From NCBI GenBank assembly GCA_022925895.1, contig JAKSYS010000066.1, positions 82,716 to 146,715 of the forward strand: a DNA stretch of 64,000 nucleotides, written 5' to 3'. The notes beneath the pieces are model-generated. The model did no database searches. It was not told the DNA's origin and worked only from the letters and a program-made list of their open reading frames with translations. The stretch comes from Fragilaria crotonensis. Taxonomy: Eukaryota > Bacillariophyta > Fragilariophyceae > Fragilariales > Fragilariaceae. Made by a program: the position numbers and the translations under genes. Below are positions 36,625 to 50,401 of the stretch, in pieces. Numbering within the stretch: the stretch's first letter is position 1; each line of letters opens with the position of its first letter.

Positions 36625-37068
36625 TCACTGGTCAACGAGACTGGACCGTTTGATATAATCATCGACGATGGTTCCCATATCAATTGGCATCAAATCAAAA
36701 CTCTGGAGAACCTGATTTCAAAAGTGAATCCTGGAGGTTTTTACGTTGTTGAAGACATTCATAGTTCATGCGTGAGTTGGCAGGCCAACGTTGGGACACA
36801 GGAAAGGGGAGAGTTTGTCGGCGGTACGAGTGGGTGCATGCAGACAAGGGATGGTAATGAAACAATTTTTGCAAAGGTAGTTGAGTGGCAAAAGGGTTTG
36901 ATTATGAAGCGGGAGCCCTTTCCTGGAGTCAATCACATTGATTTCCACAAGGAGGCTGTTCTCTTTGGCAAGATTACGCTTTCTAGAAGGAGATTTGGCC
37001 CCTCTCAGCGTCATTTTGCTGCCAGGATTTTGCAATCTGTCAGCCAGTTACACAAATTGAAGGCGTAG
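36625..37068 (+). pseudogene. C-terminal fragment of a SAM-dependent methyltransferase gene
   Basis: The frame reads GPFDIIIDDGSHINWHQ, NPGGFYVVEDIHSSC and FAKVVEWQKGLIMKREPFPGV. It is nearly the same as the C-terminal third of the intact gene at 49409-50401 (minus strand) and then continues about 30 residues past its end. The N-terminal half, including the SAM-binding G-loop, is missing, and no start or upstream exon is seen. It is a truncated, inverted duplicate about 12.5 kb from its parent. Confidence 0.75.
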
Positions 37069-37509
37069 CAACATATTTGCACTTCGCACTTTGTGTGTCC
37101 CTTGGCGAAGCATCATCAGCCATCACTGTGTCTGTCTTGCATAGCGAAGGAGTACGTACAATTATCTGTGTCCGCGCATGCTTAAACGTACGTTTATGTG
37201 TGCCCTCAAAAAGAGTTTGTGACCAACCCTGTTTGCACACGTCGAATGCGCGGCGACGCGATGATCAGTTCTCTGCGTGTACATGCACCTCCACGATACA
37301 TCGCGCATGGCACATGACAGTCTAATTGTTTGCGAGTTTCCTTCAACATCATTCAACATGTTCACGTTTCTTTCACACAATGTGATCGAATAATGTTCTT
37401 GTCAACAACTAGCTGTGACCCAATGTGGTCCCAGATGATAGCAAGATTATAGTTAGTTAATCATGTGATCACATCCACCATCAGGTTTCACCGATGTCGT
37501 CCGTCCCGT
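37069..37509. other. intergenic region left of the Gypsy element
   Basis: No gene is recognised. The last four bases, CCGT (37,506-37,509), are the left copy of the target-site duplication of the retrotransposon. Confidence 0.5.
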
Positions 37510-37686
37510 TGTAACGTGAGACGATATGTAGATAACTGTCCGTCACCCGTGGGTCGATGACGTAGCCTCCCTAGGCACTGAATCGCTCCCAACCTCACAA
37601 CAATCATCCAGTGACGATTGGAGCTAGCCGACCATGTCCGACGATCTACGACGGGCCTACCTTTTAGGGGAGTCCCACTCGTTATA
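37510..37686 (+). repeat. 5' LTR (177 bp)
   Basis: Identical to the 3' LTR. It contains the gag ATG at 37,634, so the last 53 bp of the LTR encode the first 17-18 residues of Gag. The sequence directly after it starts TGGAAACCTGCCC, in the position and with the TGG start of a tRNA primer-binding site; this would lie inside the gag coding sequence. The tRNA was not identified. Confidence 0.9.
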
Positions 37687-39445
37687 TGGAAACCTGCCCG
37701 GCACCGAACACGCATCCCCTGCGGCAAACGCGACAACGTACGCGTTCGCAGCCATGCCAAGACCGTTTGAAAACCGAAATGACCAGTGGCAGACCAGCCA
37801 TGCCGGCGGAAGACCTGCCTACGCGACGGCCCGGCCGCTGAAACCGGACGGCACATTGAACCTCCAAGAGAAGACATGGAGCGGGGCAACATACGTCCTC
37901 GCACCGTGCCCCAAAACCACGGACCCCCAAGACGTGAAGTCTATGGTCCTCGAACATGCCATAGAATCAATCCGAACTGGCAATGGGAAATGGAAAAACA
38001 AGACCGACTGCCTAGTGAACCACTTCAACCAGGTACTCATTCTAACCCAAGCCACACTCCACATTGAAGACTTCAACATGTTCGAAAGTGCATTATTCGA
38101 CTATACGTTCCTAAGCGTACAGTCGGCGACGCACACCAGAGTCGCAATCCCACAGCCGGGAGCGAATCAAGCGGTATTCCGCAGAGATGCGCGATACGTA
38201 GCCGCAGAGATGACGATCAACCCACGACAAAGATACTCAGCTATAGGGCAGCAAGGAAACAACCTACTCCCCGATGTCGACACCAAGACTGTCGTATTTC
38301 GGCTACCACAAGGCCCCAATGCGAGTCTACATGATGCGATTACAATCGAGAACATCCGAGATGTCAGGCAACTGATCAATATTTGCAGAATTCTAAGCGG
38401 AACCGCACAAGTTGGAACAGTCGAACGTGACCAATTCACGCAAGAGAAGTTCAACCAGTGGCTTGAAGAAGCCAAGCAACACACAAAATACGAGATCGTC
38501 GCACGGCTCATGCGACCAGCATTTGTGGGCGAAGGTATCATCGAAACACCCGTCAACAGACTCGTACAATGTCAACAGAAAGGAACGAACGAGAAAGGAC
38601 AAGCCACCGCCTACACGATTGCGGAACACTATGCCAAGTTCACAGCAATCGTACAGCAGTTTAATGCAGAAGCACCGTTCCCGGTCAACCTACCGACCAC
38701 GTTCTTCAATTCACTTACAGCACACATGCAAGACAAGCTAATTAGGCGACAATACCGACACCCTCCACCAAGCTCCAACCAAGAGCAACTGACACAACTC
38801 CAGAGACTGCGGGATTTAGCAGCCGAAGAAGAGAAGGACATCGAAACCCAAATCCAGCTCATCAAGAATACACTCACCCCAACACGAGGACCACCACCGT
38901 ATGCCACCAGCAATAGGGGGTATCATCAACAACACCAGAAACCGATGGCGCGCACATTCATGGCGTACGGCGACAGTCAATACGGCGACGATGAGGATAG
39001 AACCAAGGGATACCATGACCACGGAAACAATCACAACGGAGGAGGCGCACACAACCGACCATCTCAGTATGGAGAAGTACCGGATGAAGACGCACTCATG
39101 GAGCAATTCCGGCTCCTCGAACACTGGACAGAAGGCGAAGGGAACAGTATCAGTTGTTTTCTAAGTCCAGCAGAAAGCGCGTTACGCAATGCAAGCGGAA
39201 CCGAACGACCCATCGAATGTTGGGGATGCACGGGACACGGAACCCACCACACCAACCGATTCCACAGCTTCCGCGACTGTCCAAACAGATACGACCCGGA
39301 GGTCCGCAGTTTAGCGTTCCGCCGCATGAAACAAATGCGCGAGGAATGGGAAGAACGCAAACGCGACCAACCCAAGAATGGCACCGGAACGCGCAAACGA
39401 GACGCACAGGCACTCCTCACAAAGGCGGAAGCAATGCGCGATTGA
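37634..39445 (+). CDS. gag: Gag of the Gypsy element (603 aa)
   Basis: An open frame from the LTR-internal ATG to a TGA at 39,443. The first ~500 residues have no recognisable domain; the middle is helical, as in capsid proteins, and residues ~420-510 are Gln-, Asn- and His-rich. Near residue 529 a Cys/His cluster (CWGCTGHGTHH...HSFRDCPN) is a probable zinc knuckle for nucleic-acid binding. The C-terminal tail is rich in Arg, Lys and Glu. The frame continues past the TGA directly into the protease region, so a Gag-Pro fusion by readthrough is possible. Confidence 0.8.
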   Translation: MSDDLRRAYLLGESHSLYGNLPGTEHASPAANATTYAFAAMPRPFENRNDQWQTSHAGGRPAYATARPLKPDGTLNLQEKTWSGATYVLAPCPKTTDPQDVKSMVLEHAIESIRTGNGKWKNKTDCLVNHFNQVLILTQATLHIEDFNMFESALFDYTFLSVQSATHTRVAIPQPGANQAVFRRDARYVAAEMTINPRQRYSAIGQQGNNLLPDVDTKTVVFRLPQGPNASLHDAITIENIRDVRQLINICRILSGTAQVGTVERDQFTQEKFNQWLEEAKQHTKYEIVARLMRPAFVGEGIIETPVNRLVQCQQKGTNEKGQATAYTIAEHYAKFTAIVQQFNAEAPFPVNLPTTFFNSLTAHMQDKLIRRQYRHPPPSSNQEQLTQLQRLRDLAAEEEKDIETQIQLIKNTLTPTRGPPPYATSNRGYHQQHQKPMARTFMAYGDSQYGDDEDRTKGYHDHGNNHNGGGAHNRPSQYGEVPDEDALMEQFRLLEHWTEGEGNSISCFLSPAESALRNASGTERPIECWGCTGHGTHHTNRFHSFRDCPNRYDPEVRSLAFRRMKQMREEWEERKRDQPKNGTGTRKRDAQALLTKAEAMRD

Positions 39446-40285
39446 CAACACCTCGGATTTAATTCCAGAACCGAAGCAGAGAACGCGGCAGATGCGGTGG
39501 CGTTGATGGCAACGGACATGTCAGCGAGGCATCGAAAGAACATGATCCGCGAATGGAATCGCAAGGTAAGCAACGCGAACGAACCAACCGGAGACGACGA
39601 AGGAACAGACACGACGGCAACAAGCTATTACGGACCGGCGACCAGGAGCAGAAACAACCAGACGTTCCATTTCATCGCACGAGTCTTCCAGGCGACGCCG
39701 ATGAAGTTACTACCACTCGAGATATCGCCAACGTTGCCACACTGCAACTTCCCAATCGGACCCACCCACGGAAAAGGAAAATTGAAAATAGCGGTTGACT
39801 CCTGCGCCGGGGTAAACATCGGACATTTAGAGTTCCACAAGGCCATGGCTGACACATTCCCAGAATTGGTCGCATCATTCAAGACCATGCAAGACTACGG
39901 TGAACAGGATGTCACCATCGGGGGAGTGGAAGTATCGGCGACAACTCTGAAGCTGACTCACATCATCGAGTACAAAACCCCATTCCGTTATAACGGAACC
40001 GCATGTAACCTGACGTTTGGACTCAGCGCGAGCGCAGCGGCAACAGCCATCGTGTCCATCAACTTTCTACGCAAGACAAAAGCGCTGTGGAGCTATGATG
40101 ACGCAGAGCCCAATATCCACCTCACGATCTGGCAAACGACACTCGGAATCCAGTATGAACCACCTACGAGGAGAAAGGCACCTACTCCACAGGACAGATT
40201 CAGAGCGGAGACGACCGCCGTGTACACAACGACAGCCAAGAGAGCAACCGTCGTTGAGGAAAGCGGAAACAGTGCGGATGAATGA
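39446..40285 (+). CDS. protease region, same frame as gag, between two UGA codons
   Basis: The frame is open between the TGA at 39,443-39,445 and the TGA at 40,283-40,285. A convincing ATG start is absent at its beginning. The segment KLKIAVDSCAGVNIGHLEF is in the place and context of the retropepsin active site (D-T/S-G-A); here a Cys separates Ser and Ala-Gly. A hydrophobic strand with TAIVSINFLRKTKALWSYDD fits the second conserved retropepsin region before the C-terminal helix. Function as the polyprotein protease is inferred from position and motif. Confidence 0.6.
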   Translation, partial: QHLGFNSRTEAENAADAVALMATDMSARHRKNMIREWNRKVSNANEPTGDDEGTDTTATSYYGPATRSRNNQTFHFIARVFQATPMKLLPLEISPTLPHCNFPIGPTHGKGKLKIAVDSCAGVNIGHLEFHKAMADTFPELVASFKTMQDYGEQDVTIGGVEVSATTLKLTHIIEYKTPFRYNGTACNLTFGLSASAAATAIVSINFLRKTKALWSYDDAEPNIHLTIWQTTLGIQYEPPTRRKAPTPQDRFRAETTAVYTTTAKRATVVEESGNSADE

Positions 40286-43200
40286 CAGCGGCAAGGCGAC
40301 CCAGCAAAGCCGAAGAACAACCTGGGAGCATGGGAGGAGGCATACGACGTCAGTGACACAGGAACAATCGCAGACAGCATAAACAACAACGCGGGAGTCA
40401 CATACCGGATGGACACCGCGACGAACAAACTTTACATTAGGGTTTTAGCAGCATCCTCTGCCACGAGAGAAGAATTAGAATCAGCGAAACAGCGAATGGA
40501 CGATGGAAGCAAACCAGTGATAACAGAAAAAAGACCTTATAGGCCAAAACCAACTTCACAATACGAAGAACCCGCCTACCTACCGGATGACGATGACACA
40601 TTAGAAGTGTTGTACCGAAATGGAGGGACAGCGGTATCCAAAATGAAGGAGGAAGTAAGCGAACGCAACCCAGAGTCCATCATCAAATACGACGAGAAAC
40701 TGCATGCGGAAACACTGAAAAAATCACTGCAATGGGACGAGTGCCCAGAGGAACTGCGACCACCCATACTTGAACTGGTCAAGAAGTACTGGGACGTATT
40801 CGCGCAGGAGGGACTAAAACATCACATCAGAGGATTTGTATGCCACATCGACACAGGCAACGCCCAGCCAGTATGCTGCAACATACCACGCTACGGACCA
40901 CACGAGGCAAGAGTCATCACACAACTCGCACGAGGATTAGAGGAAAACGGTCTCATAGAGGAAGCGCGAAGTCCATTGGGAGCACAAGTGGTACTTGCGG
41001 CGAAACCCAATCAAGATCACGTACACTGGCTGGTCCGCATACATATGGAGACTGACGGTATCATATCGGAAACTGAACGCAGTCACGCGGCCATTCATCT
41101 ACCCCTCACGCAGATGCGACGACGCCGCGAGGGACATAGGAAGATCGAAACACTTCATTACCATGGACTTCGAAAGTGGGTTCTGGCAAGTACTATTACA
41201 CGAGAAGTCGCGAGACAAAACGGCGTTCTTTGTGCCAAATGGACAGAAACGCTGGACAGTCATGCCGATGGGATGCCTCAACGCACACGGCACATTCTGC
41301 TGCCTGGTAGACACCTTGAAACGCCAATGGAACAAGAAAGCGACAGAACTTGGGATTCGAGACGACATCGAAGTGACACTCAAAGGCGAGAGACCGTGGA
41401 CCGACGCGGAAGTCATAGTGGACGACATCATGCTACATTCAGAACATACCGCACCGCTCATAAAATACTTCGAAATAGTACTCCAAATATTGCAGAGACA
41501 CCAAGTTACCGTCAAACTCAAGAAATGTCGATTCTTCCCAAAGAGCGCCGAATTTGTTGGCATGGACGTCGAAGCCGATGGCAATCGACCAGCTCGATCG
41601 AAAATGCAAGCCCTGGAAGACCTCAAGAACCAAGCTCCAAATACCGTAACCGACCTACGACAACTAATCGGGTTGATCGGCTTCTATCAAGATTGGATCG
41701 CGAACTATGAACTCAGAATTGGACGATGGCGACAACATATTAAGAAGTTAAAAGGCACCAAGCCGACGGAGAGTGAGATCACACTGGCGTCGGAATGGCA
41801 ACAGGAAGACAACCAACTGCTAAACGAGCTACTCGACGAACTGATCACGAGACCAACGCTCGCAAGACCAGATTACACACGACGGTTCTACCTTAAAACC
41901 GACTGGTGCAGACTTGGGATGGCAGCAGTATTGCTACAAGCGGACCCGAACGACCACAACGCCGCGTTACACGAGACACAAGAAACCAGCGAGCTCAAAC
42001 CGTGCAAGTTTGACAAACACATGCACAACCTGAGACTACGTCCGATCGCATTCAGCTCACGCAAATGCACAGAAAGTGAAAGCGCCATGCATTCGTACAC
42101 GGGTGAGGCAGCAACAGGTGTGTGGGCAATCGAGAAATATAAGAGACACCTCTTCGGCAAAGAGTTTACTTGGATGACAGACTGCAACGGCTTACGACAG
42201 TTCTTTGACGGCGAGGATGTCCCGACACACATGCACCAACGCATGCGACAACGACTGCTGCGATTCCACTTCACAATCGTACACAGACCAGCACGATTCA
42301 TGGTGGAGTGCGATGTACTCACAAGATACAACACCATCACCAGCAAATGGCGACCAGAGACACCACCCATAAGCAAAACCAATCAGAACCAAATCGCCAT
42401 CGCAATTGCCACCACAAACCAGCCACCTGAGGCAACGGAAGATGGCAACCAACCGAAGACACTCCTGGCGGCGAAGAGCGACAACACACGCAACATTTGG
42501 ACATACAACGCCGGAGCAACGAACATCGAGACAGCAGCAGCGGAAGCGGGCATCACAACACACATCCGAAGCATCGAAGAAAGACCAACGTGGCGCACAC
42601 ATCCATTCGACAGACACCGCACCGACCCAAAACTCCTCACAATCGAACAGCTTGAGACAATAATTGAACCGACCGAGCGAGTCGACTGGATAATCGCGCA
42701 CGATGGATGCGAAACGGACGCCAGCGCAGAGATCGAAAGACAGTTCGCACGGCTCACACATCTGATCAACATCGGAGAGCGACACAACGTCAAGGCAATC
42801 GCTATCTTCACACACCCTACCACGCGAATACACGACGACGACAGCAATGAAGAAACATCGGCCATCGACATGCGCATGCAGCAACTGGAGGGGAACAAGT
42901 GGAACACACTGCGGGCAACAGTCCAATCAAACCGATACGGAGCGGCGATCGCCACAACATTCACGATGATCATCGCGACCAAGGATATCAACACACTGCG
43001 AGCCTTTCACCTACAAGGCAGCGACGCGACTCCACTCAGCGACATAGTCAACAACGCAGCGGAGCAACACGAACCCAACGTATCATCGTCAGAGATTAGA
43101 GCAATGCAGCGCCCACCCCAAGCAAGAAATGTCAACGAACCGCAAATTGCTGCACTCATCCAACGCACGGGACAAGAAGACAACACAAGAGACTGGATCA

Positions 43201-46064
43201 CGGCCTGGACACCGTGTTACAGCACCGACCACCCGGGACCAGACCTACACGACACATCCACGCAATGGTACGAAAGTCCGTTTGCGATAGAAACGACGAG
43301 CCACGACCACACAAGCACAGTCAGAGGAATACGACACCACGAACTCGTCGACATAATTGGATACGACGAGGATACAAGGTATCGGATGCTACAACTCCCG
43401 CCAGAAATGGCGGTGGCGCAAATGAGGGCAACACCGCTGAAACAACTCATGACCACAGTGATCATTGGAATACAGAGCGCAGAGAACAAGACAGGCGCAA
43501 GCGAAAACACAACGGAAATCCCGGCCACATCCGACGACGACGGCATCGACGACGACCTGAGACGTGCACTCACGGTCATGCTAGCACATGAGTTTCAACA
43601 GACAACGGCAATCCCATTACCAACGACAGCACAATGGCAAGACGCGACAGCGAACGATTGGGACCTCAACAGACTCGTCCACGCCATCAGAGAGGGACGC
43701 CAACTCCAACGCGAAGAGATCGAGAACGCAACGCTTTATAAACTATGGTCGCAACAAAAGTTAGAGGAGGAAAATGGCATCTTGTTTCACACTGGAAAAG
43801 GCGAAAATCGAAGGCACTTACGTACAAGGATTCCACCACCAAAACTGCGACAAGCCATCTTCTCCGCACTCCACGTCGCACCAATGGCAGGCCACACAGG
43901 GTACCAAAAGACGTTCTGGAAGATCGCGGCGAGATACTATTGGCCGAACATGGCAACCGACATCAAACAACTCACTCTCGGATGCGGACACTGCAATGCG
44001 GCAAACATCACCAGTCACGAAGCACAGCAACAACTCGCAACATTCCAGGCAGACGAGCCATTCGACGTCATCACACTGGACGTATGGCACCCAGGACGAG
44101 CAGCGACTGTAAAAAAAGGCAACGGCACACACGTGGTAACCTGCATCGACACCATGACAGGATTTGCGGCGGCCACATTTGTGAATGCGTTAGATTCCGA
44201 GACAATGACAAGAGCGGCATTCACATCGTTTTTCATCAATCACGGCTTACCAAGACTAGTCATTATTGATTCAGGCAGTGAATTTGCAGGCGCAATGCAA
44301 ACACTCTGCCAAAATATCGGGCTACCAAACTACACGGTCAGCAAAGGGAACCACAAAGCCATTATATGCGAGAGATTTCATCGATACTTAAACAAAGTCC
44401 AACGAATCCACGCCGCCGACTGTGAAACATTCCAAGACTTCATGTTCGGTACCATTTTTGCAGTGTATGCCTGGAACTCAGCCCCAGTAGACGGGACGAA
44501 TATCGTACGATCATACGCAGCAATAGGGAGAGAGTTTCCGTTCCCAATTGACTTTGAGCACGAGCCCATAGTACCGAGGGATCACGAAGCGCAAGGGCAA
44601 CAAACAATCGAACACGTGGACAGTGCATTCCCACTATGGCGGCAACAACAAGAAGTCCTCAAGGTACTAATCAACGACAGACGAGACCATCATCGGAACC
44701 TAAAAAACGAAGGACGCAACATGAAATCGTTTGCACCAGGCGACCTGGTCGTCATTAAAAAACAAGTCCAAACCACACAGGAGAATGGCCCGGCAAAAGC
44801 CAGAATGCACGCGAGAGGACCATATCGGATACTCGAACAGATCAAACCAGGCACATACCGCGTCCAGAAACTGCCAGGTATAAGAGGAGCAGGACGGAGA
44901 GGACGGATCACAAAAGAATCTGCAGCCCGGCTCACAAGAATCCCATCCACTTTGGTCATTCACAAGCCAACCACGGGCATCGACACGAGACTGGCAACGT
45001 ATCGACACGCCATTGTCGACAACCCACTCGAAAACATTTTGGGACTACATGAACCAGGACGATACAGACAAGCAGAACCAGAACAGCCATTTGCATACGA
45101 CAAAATTGAGGACATGTGGCAAGAAGATATTGACAACATGCCACACGAAAATTCGGAGAGCAACTCGGACAGCGACGACGACGACGACAGCAGCGGTGAT
45201 GACGGCGACGACAACAACGACAGCCCGCCAACAACATCAACCCCACAGATGACACACCAAACGCCCCCTCCACCACCAGAGAACAACGACGACCCTGACG
45301 GCGACAGACAACGGCAAGATGGCATAGCGGAAAGTACCACACCAAACGCCGCCGAAGACATCCCCGATACCGGAAACGGAGACGCACTGGGTACAAAGAG
45401 AAAAGCAAACATTACCACAACCAATAACAAACGCAAGAAAACAGCACCGGACAGACCGCAACGCACATCAACACGCACGACAAACAAACCAGCTCGATTC
45501 AGAGATGAAGCGACAAGAGCAACAGATACCGATCAGCAACAACGCATGAAAGCACACAAACTATACAAAGCAACTCGGAAGTCACGAGACAAACTGTTCT
45601 TTATCAGACATACAATCGATACAACCAGCATACAGCGATGGTACGTCGTGCAGGTCAAATTACAAGACGACGATACGGAGACCACACGAGACGAAGGAAA
45701 ATATAAGGTCTGGTTCTACATCCGCGAGCATGCAAACAGCAAAGAGCGTCAACTACGCAACTGCCGGTACTGGCCGGAAATTCACAAGATACGTCCGAAC
45801 GGTACATTGGGCGAAATAGTGCCAATACGCCCGGGCAAAGTGACAGCAATACTCGACGACCAACCAGGAAAATACAGAGTCTACGAACAAACGATCAATT
45901 TATGCGAATTCGCACTCGTCGGGCCTTTCGACTTCGCTCACCCGAGACACTATCAAAACGAAGGCAATCGCATCGCGTTCGAAGAATGGGAAGAGCTAAA
46001 ATCAGCCGCGAAACATCACGATTTAGACGTCAGCGACATCGAAGAAATCATACCACTACGATAA
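40286..46064 (+). CDS. pol: Pol: RT, RNase H, MTase-like insert, integrase and C-terminal domain; one frameshift
   Basis: The frame of gag and protease continues to about 41,030, where CTGG is tandemly duplicated (41,026-41,033) and reading moves to the frame that stays open to 46,064. RT shows LTVSYRKLNAVTRPF, FITMDFESGFWQVLL, MPMGCLNAHG and VIVDDIMLHS (catalytic Asp pair). RNase H has FYLKTDWCRLGMAAVLLQ and FAWMTD-type strands up to about 42,350. From about 42,490 to 43,490 lies an insert resembling a degenerate cytosine-5 methyltransferase. Integrase follows, with the zinc residues HVAPMAGH...CGHCN and the triad ITLDVWHPG, VIIDSGSEFAG and KAIICERFHRYL. After an SH3-like segment (FAPGDLVVIKK, GPYRILEQIKPG) comes an acidic linker and a final ~160-residue domain of unknown type ending ALVGPFDFAHP. 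At over 1,850 residues it is long for a Gypsy pol. Confidence 0.85.
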
Positions 46065-46700: not shown

Positions 46701-46877
46701 TGTAACGTGAGACGATATGTAGATAACTGTCCGTCACCCGTGGGTCGATGACGTAGCCTCCCTAGGCACTGAATCGCTCCCAACCTCACAACAATCATCC
46801 AGTGACGATTGGAGCTAGCCGACCATGTCCGACGATCTACGACGGGCCTACCTTTTAGGGGAGTCCCACTCGTTATA
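46701..46877 (+). repeat. 3' LTR (177 bp)
   Basis: A direct repeat of the 5' LTR, followed by the target duplication CCGT. Its internal ATG (46,825) opens a short frame that runs 14 codons past the LTR into the flank and stops. It is not in frame with a downstream gene product. Confidence 0.9.
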
Positions 46878-47141
46878 CCGTCCTCACGTCATTACACTTC
46901 GAGATCTCCCCGTCCCTTGGTAGAAATTGTTGAGCCAGCAACCCTAACGCAAACGCTCAACGCTTCAGGGCACCATTTTTTGATAAAAACTGCATTCTGC
47001 CTTCGGAGCAGTACGATCTACCGTAGAGTACTTGTACCAGGCGTATACTACAGTAAAAATCGCCTGACCATGACACTTCGTTCGCACAATTTCACGCGAC
47101 TACAGTATATGAATATGCATATATCTGAAAAGAAGTCCAAA

Positions 47142-48747: not shown

Positions 48748-49408
48748 CTATGTATGCTTACACATATCTGACAGGACAACCCAAACGCCAAACGACCAGG
48801 AACGTGCAATATCCAAAAGATCGGTCAGAGGATATCGGTCATTATAGACATTGAACTGATCATCTGTGAGTCAGAAGTGGTGCGCTCTCGCGCCACAAAT
48901 TGCGAGTGAGTGCTACCATTACCAGTGATGTGAGGAATTGGTACTCCAGTAATCAATTCAGTACTGTCTCGATTCTGACGTACCTTCACGCCTTTACGGT
49001 CTCCTATCTAGAGAGTAGCAGTAGAGCTACTAGTAGGTCGTGTATACTTGTACTGTAGCACTGTATGATAGTAGAGCTATGTACACTCGTACAGTAGCAC
49101 TATTTATCGGCTGTGGTACTTGTACGACTAGTTCTAACGGTCGCTTACAACTTAGTAGTTCACCACCACCAATGACCACAAAAGCAGTATTGTACTCGGA
49201 GTGGCCTACATATGCTTCGACACCCCTGTCTATATGCAGGGAGACTGGTCGTACAGCAGGTCCTCGTGCACCTCGGCCAGAGGACATGAAATGAAACGAT
49301 GATGATGTGCATTCAGTTTGTGCAACATGCTCGCTCACCATCGACCTGGATAGAGTCTGACCAAAAGATGGCAAAAGACGGGAGTGGCTCCTTCAAGCAT
49401 GCAGATGG
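48748..49408. other. intergenic region
   Basis: About 660 bp. It begins with the 5' region of the cupin gene and contains dense GTACT/AGTAG words at about 48,940-49,140. No gene is recognised. Confidence 0.4.
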
Positions 49409-50401
49409 CTAACTCTTTTCCAAGACCACGGCCTCCTTGTGGAAATCGATGCGACTGACACCAGGAAAGGGTTCCCGTTTTAGAATTAATCCCTTCTGCC
49501 ACTCAACTAACTTCGCAAAAATTGTAGGACCGCCTTCGTCAGTCGTCATGCAGTCTTTGGTTCCGCCGGTTGGTACTCCCCTCTCTTGTGTCCCAATGTT
49601 GGCTTCCCAACTCAAGCACGAACTATGAATGTCCTCGACAACGTAAAAACCTCCAGGATTTACACTTGAGATCAGGTACTCCAGGGTAAAAATTTGATGC
49701 CAATTGATATGGGAGCCATCGTCAATAATAACATCAAACGGCCCTGCCTCCTCGACCACGTGCGCCAAATCCTGCGGCGACGATGCATCGCCGGTATGTA
49801 CCGTCGCCACATTGGGGTGTTCAGCGTCCCATTCTTTCGCGCAATCTTCGTCGTATTCTAAAACATGCAATTCCATCACTCGCTCGGATCCAAACAAGTA
49901 TCGCCACGCCAAGGGCGACCCTCCGGGCGTTTTGCGGATCATGCCTCCACCAGGAGCACAACCCAAACCAATCTCCAATATCTTAATAGGTTTCATTTCC
50001 TGCGGCTGAACGCCATTCGATGCTTCGATGACGCCGGCGCAGTATCGTTTCCGTACCATGCTGGCCATGTAAGGATAATACATGGTATGATAGCCGTGGT
50101 CTTTGCCATTGGCCTTGTCAGTTAATCCTCTCGAACCTTTGTTTATTTCGAATGCCATAGTATCTGGACCACCATTTACCCAATTTGGCAAGATGCAGCC
50201 AGTCATCTCGTCGCGAACTTGAGGTACCATTGCATTGGGGAGACCTCCCGATAGGTAGTGAGGATCAAAACTGTAGGACTCCAACACTTGGTCTCGATGG
50301 TGGTACGAACCCCCGACTTGATGCATGCTCACGTACATCATCATGTTGACGACAAACTGGATAGTAACAACGATCAGGAATAGCTTGGTGGTAGTCTTCA
50401 T
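49409..50401 (-). CDS. membrane-anchored SAM-dependent methyltransferase (330 aa)
   Basis: The start at 50,401 (ATG) is preferred over a GTG one codon upstream. A signal anchor (LFLIVVTIQFVVNMMMYV) suggests a type II membrane protein of the secretory pathway. The class I methyltransferase core has IKILEIGLGCAPGGG (SAM-binding loop), LHVLEYDEDC (acidic residue at the end of strand 2), VIIDDGSHINWHQ and NPGGFYVVEDIHSSC. The last two are typical of the family that includes macrocin/demethylmacrocin O-methyltransferases and sugar O-methyltransferases. The Golgi-like topology makes methylation of a glycan plausible; this is inference. A truncated copy lies at 36,625-37,068. Confidence 0.8.
   Translation of the reverse strand: MKTTTKLFLIVVTIQFVVNMMMYVSMHQVGGSYHHRDQVLESYSFDPHYLSGGLPNAMVPQVRDEMTGCILPNWVNGGPDTMAFEINKGSRGLTDKANGKDHGYHTMYYPYMASMVRKRYCAGVIEASNGVQPQEMKPIKILEIGLGCAPGGGMIRKTPGGSPLAWRYLFGSERVMELHVLEYDEDCAKEWDAEHPNVATVHTGDASSPQDLAHVVEEAGPFDVIIDDGSHINWHQIFTLEYLISSVNPGGFYVVEDIHSSCLSWEANIGTQERGVPTGGTKDCMTTDEGGPTIFAKLVEWQKGLILKREPFPGVSRIDFHKEAVVLEKS

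Follow-up and report, generated by a model that had tools for sequence, protein, structure and literature searches.

The stretch analysed here, 64,000 nucleotides of Fragilaria crotonensis contig JAKSYS010000066.1 (the window), contains a Ty3/Gypsy retrotransposon with an additional domain in its Pol polyprotein, between RNase H and integrase. This domain almost certainly belongs to the cytosine-5 methyltransferase (C5-MTase) family and is predicted to be catalytically dead in the whole clade of related elements. An earlier note on the same DNA had proposed a C5-MTase-like domain in this single element, on the basis of about 330 pol residues which belong to neither RNase H nor integrase. The finding is larger than that claim, since it concerns a clade-wide pseudo-methyltransferase and not one odd element.

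The gap between RNase H and integrase in Pol comprises about 520 residues and is left unassigned by Pfam, which bears out the residues singled out before. For the block at window positions 42369-43619, the best Pfam match was no better than E value 0.12 and no PF00145 match was obtained. Search against PDB sequences gave zero matches, either with the window sequence alone or with a 13-sequence profile. Pfam scan of 18 relatives listed nine families, and PF00145 was absent from them. Pfam-based detection by PF00145 fails for this domain.

The block was aligned from 89 of 90 relatives (P0012, which is without the RNase H anchor, was excluded), and a domain profile was constructed from the 88 relatives whose domain part exceeds 200 residues. 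The reference profile represents 83 C5-MTases, 80 of them from viral contigs and 3 from host genes. Comparison of the two profiles by hhalign gave a probability of 94 and a P value of 1.3e-7 over 287 aligned columns, with the motifs colinear in the C5-MTase order. At the level of sequence profiles this match is not one of chance, because the best of 100 column-shuffled profiles reached only P 0.097. Other controls gave P values of 0.17 (reversed profile), 0.38 (RNase H profile) and 0.14 (integrase zinc profile). Six subgroups representing 97 of the 113 clade proteins were also compared with the C5-MTases separately, and showed P values of 7.3e-5, 1.4e-3, 1e-5, 0.036, 6.1e-5 and 1.7e-4. All 15 subgroup pairs are homologous across the RNase H-to-integrase stretch (P <= 3e-12, linkers beside the domain included).

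Structure models of two different sequences, the window domain and its relative P0051, agree with the profile comparison. The best 50 PDB matches in each of four listings were all from the C5-MTase family, and both models possess a two-lobe class I methyltransferase fold against which the motif IX-X part packs. Neither of the contrary outcomes named in the earlier note, an absence of class I methyltransferase matches or an unambiguous match to a different fold, was seen among the matches listed for either model. The best structures listed for the P0051 model were M.HhaI and M.MpeI, not DNMT3. Like M.HhaI and PF00145, the domain has the two-lobe fold (in the better model), the motif order I-X and the motif IX residues. 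Unlike them, it is without PCQ, ENV, QxRxR and FxGxG, is acidic and lies below Pfam detection.

The domain and its motif positions in the window are as follows.

42483..43502, forward strand: C5-MTase-like domain without catalytic residues (putative pseudo-methyltransferase), from structure models, profile alignment and residue counts.
42495..42524, forward strand: motif I remnant IWTYNAGATN; the G at nucleotide (nt) 42513 falls on the first G of FxGxG.
42684..42710, forward strand: motif IV strand DWIIAHDGC; C584 (nt 42708) is in the catalytic Cys column.
42795..42821, forward strand: motif VI strand AIAIFTHPT; the F at nt 42807 is in place of the ENV Glu.
42930..42974, forward strand: motif VIII hairpin NRYGAAIATTFTMII; QxRxR is absent.
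42975..43322, forward strand: variable region resembling a target recognition domain (TRD), for the most part of low confidence in the window model.
43323..43370, forward strand: motif IX RGIRHHELVDIIGYDE, kept across the clade.
43419..43484, forward strand: motif X region, helical, from the model and the profile alignment.

The peptides quoted in the earlier note are present, and their placement agrees with the profile-profile alignment. NAGATN falls on motif I, C584 on the catalytic Cys column, YGAAIATTF on motif VIII and RGIRHHELVDIIGYDE on motif IX, with the next stretch on motif X. For the proposed acidic residue of motif II, which adjoins an alignment gap, the agreement is within about two positions.

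Residue counts in the 88 aligned members revealed the loss of each catalytic motif. In the nucleophile column of motif IV, Cys occurs in 4/88 (P0001, P0002, P0003 and P0008, all near the window copy) and Pro-Cys in 0/88, the window copy having DGC. The ENV column of motif VI has Glu in 0/88 and Phe in 43/88. In the QxRxR columns of motif VIII, Gln was found in none, the two Arg in 8/88 and 16/88, and both Arg together in 0/88. The three Gly columns of FxGxG in motif I retain Gly in 34/88, 2/88 and 0/88, the first two together in 2/88. Motif IX (R..L...E.....G) is kept, with Glu in 77/88 and Gly in 84/88. Plain-pattern search of 110 of the 113 clade regions (P0012, P0048 and P0071 being without a usable region) gave PCQ in 1, ENV in 4, QxRxR in 10 and FxGxG in 2, none of them above the means for shuffled regions (1.9, 8.3, 10.5 and 2.4). 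The motif IX pattern was present in 92/110 regions, where shuffling gave 4 on average and 12 at most. Conservation of 88-99% over the 89 members was observed for W119, G203 and P303, and for R331, E337 and G343 of motif IX (aligned-block numbering).

From these counts we infer that the domain is catalytically dead in the whole clade. The earlier suggestion of an inactive or repurposed domain is thus more strongly supported, the catalytic residues being lost throughout the 88 aligned members. The Cys noted as kept is indeed on the catalytic column in the window copy; it is no evidence of remaining chemistry, because it is limited to four close relatives, none of which has the preceding Pro. Decay confined to the window copy was rejected because the residue loss is clade-wide.

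The clade was collected with the RT-RNase H regions (RT, reverse transcriptase) of the window element and P0039 as queries, and is bounded as P0001-P0113. Its members come from metagenomes and genomes, P0087 being from MMETSP transcripts. Beyond it are Gypsy-type polyproteins of 26-30% identity (120 of 136 matches listed in one search), the nearest of which match the clade in their Pfam models for RT, RNase H and integrase; the RT tree is midpoint-rooted and no root is claimed. Both flanking anchors are significant in 99/113 clade proteins, and their spacing is 430-614 residues in 99/99. Each clade member in which the domain could be sought contains it (99/99). P0048 was counted as anchor-less; a lax recount gave a spacing of 41, with an integrase anchor of -0.7 bits, and the other count gave it no such anchor. 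Among 19 outside proteins, 18 have both anchors, with a spacing of 61-173 residues in 17 and of 310 in one (P0119).

The domain is constrained, less than the enzymes of Pol. When the window element is compared with related copies in its own genome, the domain has a ratio of nonsynonymous to synonymous differences (pN/pS) of 0.31; its core taken separately has 0.36, and its later part, for which a different copy was used, has 0.27. Elsewhere in Pol the ratio is 0.26 in the linker that follows, 0.20 in the C-terminal region, 0.10 in RNase H, 0.07 in integrase and 0.05 in RT. Because synonymous sites are almost saturated, these values are reliable in direction only. The net charge of the domain has a median of -4.1 per 100 residues and is negative in 86/88 members, while the 83 C5-MTases are mildly basic at +1.4 (73% positive) and the clade's own RNase H has +1.0. 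Core (-4.4) and TRD-like part (-4.8) carry this charge and the motif IX-X part is neutral. Such acidity, as read from the sequences, speaks against the usual grip on DNA.

To this whole picture we give a probability of roughly 60%: a captured C5-MTase which lost its chemistry and was retained as a non-catalytic part of Pol. The ancestor of the clade would have captured a complete M.HhaI-type C5-MTase domain between RNase H and integrase, as the homology in fold and profile suggests, and the captured enzyme would have been active before the clade diversified. The alignment shows that the residues which bind the cofactor, attack as nucleophile and activate the base were lost clade-wide, and the activity presumably went with them. 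In the proteins analysed the domain is a fixed part of Pol under purifying selection, and presumably a non-catalytic one. It may serve as a scaffold which ties RT and RNase H on one side to integrase on the other and presents a surface for some partner, a tentative proposal to which we give somewhat less than even odds. Contacts with protein rather than a grip on DNA would be expected because the core and the TRD-like part are acidic.

Several points weigh against this explanation. The fourth subgroup (n=21), at P 0.036, is not significant alone, and in the third and fifth the alignment begins only at about motif IV or VI. The window model is modest, with a mean predicted local distance difference test (pLDDT) score of 63.5, a predicted template modelling (pTM) score of 0.63 and residues 188-282 under pLDDT 50. 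Its Foldseek TM-scores are low, query-normalised 0.29-0.45 among the matches listed. RT, RNase H and integrase all change several times more slowly than the domain, and with synonymous sites so near saturation the estimate of selection is rough. No partner or cleavage site of the domain was identified. Capture before decay remains the presumed order, because neither the own-genome PF00145 scan nor the Pfam annotation of relatives revealed an intermediate whose motifs are intact. The scan of the own genome (62.1 Mb, 881 contigs) gave 15 PF00145 matches, and no Gypsy Pol was seen at the nine loci inspected, with up to three longest frames each. The listed relatives from three homology searches (120 of 136 in one of them) were without PF00145 in their Pfam annotation, and no relative of the domain was confirmed in viral contigs.

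The own genome has several C5-MTase genes which pass the PF00145 cut-off (loci L018-L025), and we take them to include Dnmt2-like and bacterial-type ones.

A different role is conceivable for a non-catalytic domain, that of a partner or decoy of such host enzymes which alters the silencing of the element, as DNMT3L or DRM3 might. According to PMC2965745, DRM3 and its mammalian analogue Dnmt3L are catalytically mutated C5-MTases which support active ones. The presence of host C5-MTase genes and the acidic, non-catalytic and fast-evolving nature of the domain, as in a conflict, would suit this role. Nothing in the analysis points to contact with a host enzyme, and there is no sign that the domain inherited an interface of DNMT3 type, because the best structures listed are M.HhaI and M.MpeI. 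We consider this role unlikely. It is similarly doubtful that an obligatory dead Pol domain of an algal Gypsy clade interferes with or redirects host DNA methylation as a counterpart of DNMT3L and DRM3.

The domain might instead be a passive spacer which needs only to fold. Its fold is kept despite high sequence divergence, and retroviral RT possesses a degenerate RNase H connection domain. Single residues conserved at 88-99% (W119, G203, P303, R331, E337 and G343) seem beyond the need of a spacer, and we find this reading improbable. Slightly less probable is a DNA- or chromatin-binding module steering integration. Chromodomains guide integration in chromoviruses, the domain adjoins integrase, and the motif IX segment and TRD-like lobe are kept; the net negative charge in 86/88 members, where 73% of the 83 C5-MTases are positive, argues against it.

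That the domain is an active C5-MTase which works with unusual catalytic residues is very improbable. The Cys at the nucleophile position of the window copy favors it, and it was rejected on the counts, namely Cys in 4/88, no Pro-Cys, ENV Glu or paired RxR Arg, and the first two FxGxG Gly in 2/88. A second RNase H (aRNH) or other Rossmann fold unrelated to C5-MTases is scarcely credible, even if second RNase H domains occur in plant and oomycete Gypsy elements (PMC5348765) and members of A3 gave weak Pfam matches (DUF364 at E 9e-5 in 1/18; Peripla_BP_2 at best E 0.0066 in 2/18), since two models and the profile comparison all indicate C5-MTases with motifs in order. These single-member Pfam matches were taken as noise. 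A second RNase H fold was not among the PDB matches listed for the window and P0051 models, where its absence excludes nothing.

The remaining features of the window element are as follows.

37506-37509 and 46878-46881: target site copies CCGT (4 nt) flanking the element, read from the sequence.
37510..37686, forward strand: 5' long terminal repeat (LTR), 177 nt, TG...TA, 100% identical to the 3' LTR.
37628..39445, forward strand: gag frame, gag by position; first ATG at 37634 inside the LTR, ends with TGA, without Pfam match.
39446..40285, forward strand: protease-region frame, in the frame of gag, ends with TGA, without Pfam match; protease presumed from position only.
40286..41040, forward strand: pol start, read in the gag frame; compared with relatives, this copy shifts frame within RT near 41,030.
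41046..41567, forward strand: reverse transcriptase PF00078, Pfam E 7.7e-22.
41796..42266, forward strand: RNase H PF17919 and PF17917, Pfam E 1.5e-17 and 6.1e-14, pol residues 280-436.
43833..44006, forward strand: integrase zinc-binding domain PF17921, then integrase core, Pfam E 3.5e-16, pol residues 959-1016.
45550..46064, forward strand: conserved Pol C-terminal region after an acidic linker, without Pfam match over the cut-off.
46701..46877, forward strand: 3' LTR, 177 nt, TG...TA, 100% identical to the 5' LTR.

Pfam and LTR comparison show the Ty3/Gypsy order of RT, RNase H and integrase between LTRs. At 40959-46064 (forward strand) the pol open frame has no stop; it covers the greater part of RT and then RNase H, the unassigned block and integrase. 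A recent insertion of the element is suggested because its two LTRs are identical. In-frame TGA codons at 39443-39445 (TGA-CAA) and 40283-40285 (TGA-CAG) separate gag, protease region and pol. A full-length relative on contig 153 has gag and protease region as one frame, TGA-terminated before pol, and its Pol C-terminal region shows 73% identity to that of the window. Inverted paralogous stretches lie either side of the insertion at 36629-36984 and 49403-49758 (84% and 74%); the product of the left one looks like an S-adenosylmethionine-dependent methyltransferase, presumably, from its motif.

In the own genome, the LTR query matched 17 places and the pseudo-methyltransferase domain 17 stretches over seven contigs. 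Two full-length copies, L143 and L144 on contigs 88 and 153, show 99.7% identity across 9.3 kb, which suggests that the element moved or was duplicated recently. A decayed pair on contigs 310 and 391 is 99.7% alike across 8.4 kb. A lone LTR-like copy at C678:18588-18764, 99% identical to the window LTR, is possibly a solo LTR. Other Gypsy families with the insert were sought at 50 integrase places, of which ten loci were read; some of the other 40 are known copies. Nine of the ten represent one family with a short RNase H-to-integrase stretch by eye, and the tenth (L034) is a member of the clade.

Retrotransposons carrying C5-MTases that look active are known from dinoflagellates and a charophyte. 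De Mendoza 2018 (PMC5890265) describes KnitGypsy-Dnmt3 of the charophyte Klebsormidium nitens, with a C5-MTase in Gypsy Pol and key residues conserved, and SymbioLINE-Dnmt and SymbioDIRS-Dnmt3 of Symbiodinium, retrotransposons with C5-MTases likewise conserved in key residues. The diatom domain is like the first in lying inside Pol of an LTR Gypsy element and in purifying selection; unlike that Dnmt3-type domain, it is without catalytic motifs and has M.HhaI as its best structural match among those listed. The Symbiodinium carriers, unlike the window Gypsy, are LINE and DIRS elements which keep the key residues. In lacking catalysis the domain resembles DNMT3L and DRM3 (PMC2965745), which are host genes supporting methylation, while the diatom case is a transposon domain. 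Chronos, Archon and Tat, Gypsy elements with a second RNase H (PMC5348765), share an additional captured Pol domain and differ in its fold, which is RNase H. GyDi elements of Thalassiosira are diatom Ty3/Gypsy elements described as typical, with protease, RT, RNase H and integrase; the word "methyltransferase" is absent from the main text of that paper (PMC2806351), and they are compared with the window clade by description only. A review (PMC6338049) in which the word "diatom" is absent mentions DNA methylase domains in elements of the Ty3/Gypsy and DIRS types from several groups, stramenopiles among them.

The earlier note had held that a diatom Gypsy with a methyltransferase in this position would be new; with Klebsormidium, capture of a C5-MTase by Gypsy Pol as such is already known, and the dead, clade-wide version appears new here. 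None of the literature matches listed describes a C5-MTase within Gypsy Pol that is catalytically dead, most subscription journals and all bioRxiv preprints being outside their scope. Because Pfam-based surveys miss such domains, Gypsy elements may have captured domains more often than such counts indicate. The finding suggests a non-catalytic use of the methyltransferase fold in a retroelement, because the domain is kept in 99/99 checkable clade members though its chemistry was discarded, and it may reveal how elements handle host methylation or assemble Pol complexes.

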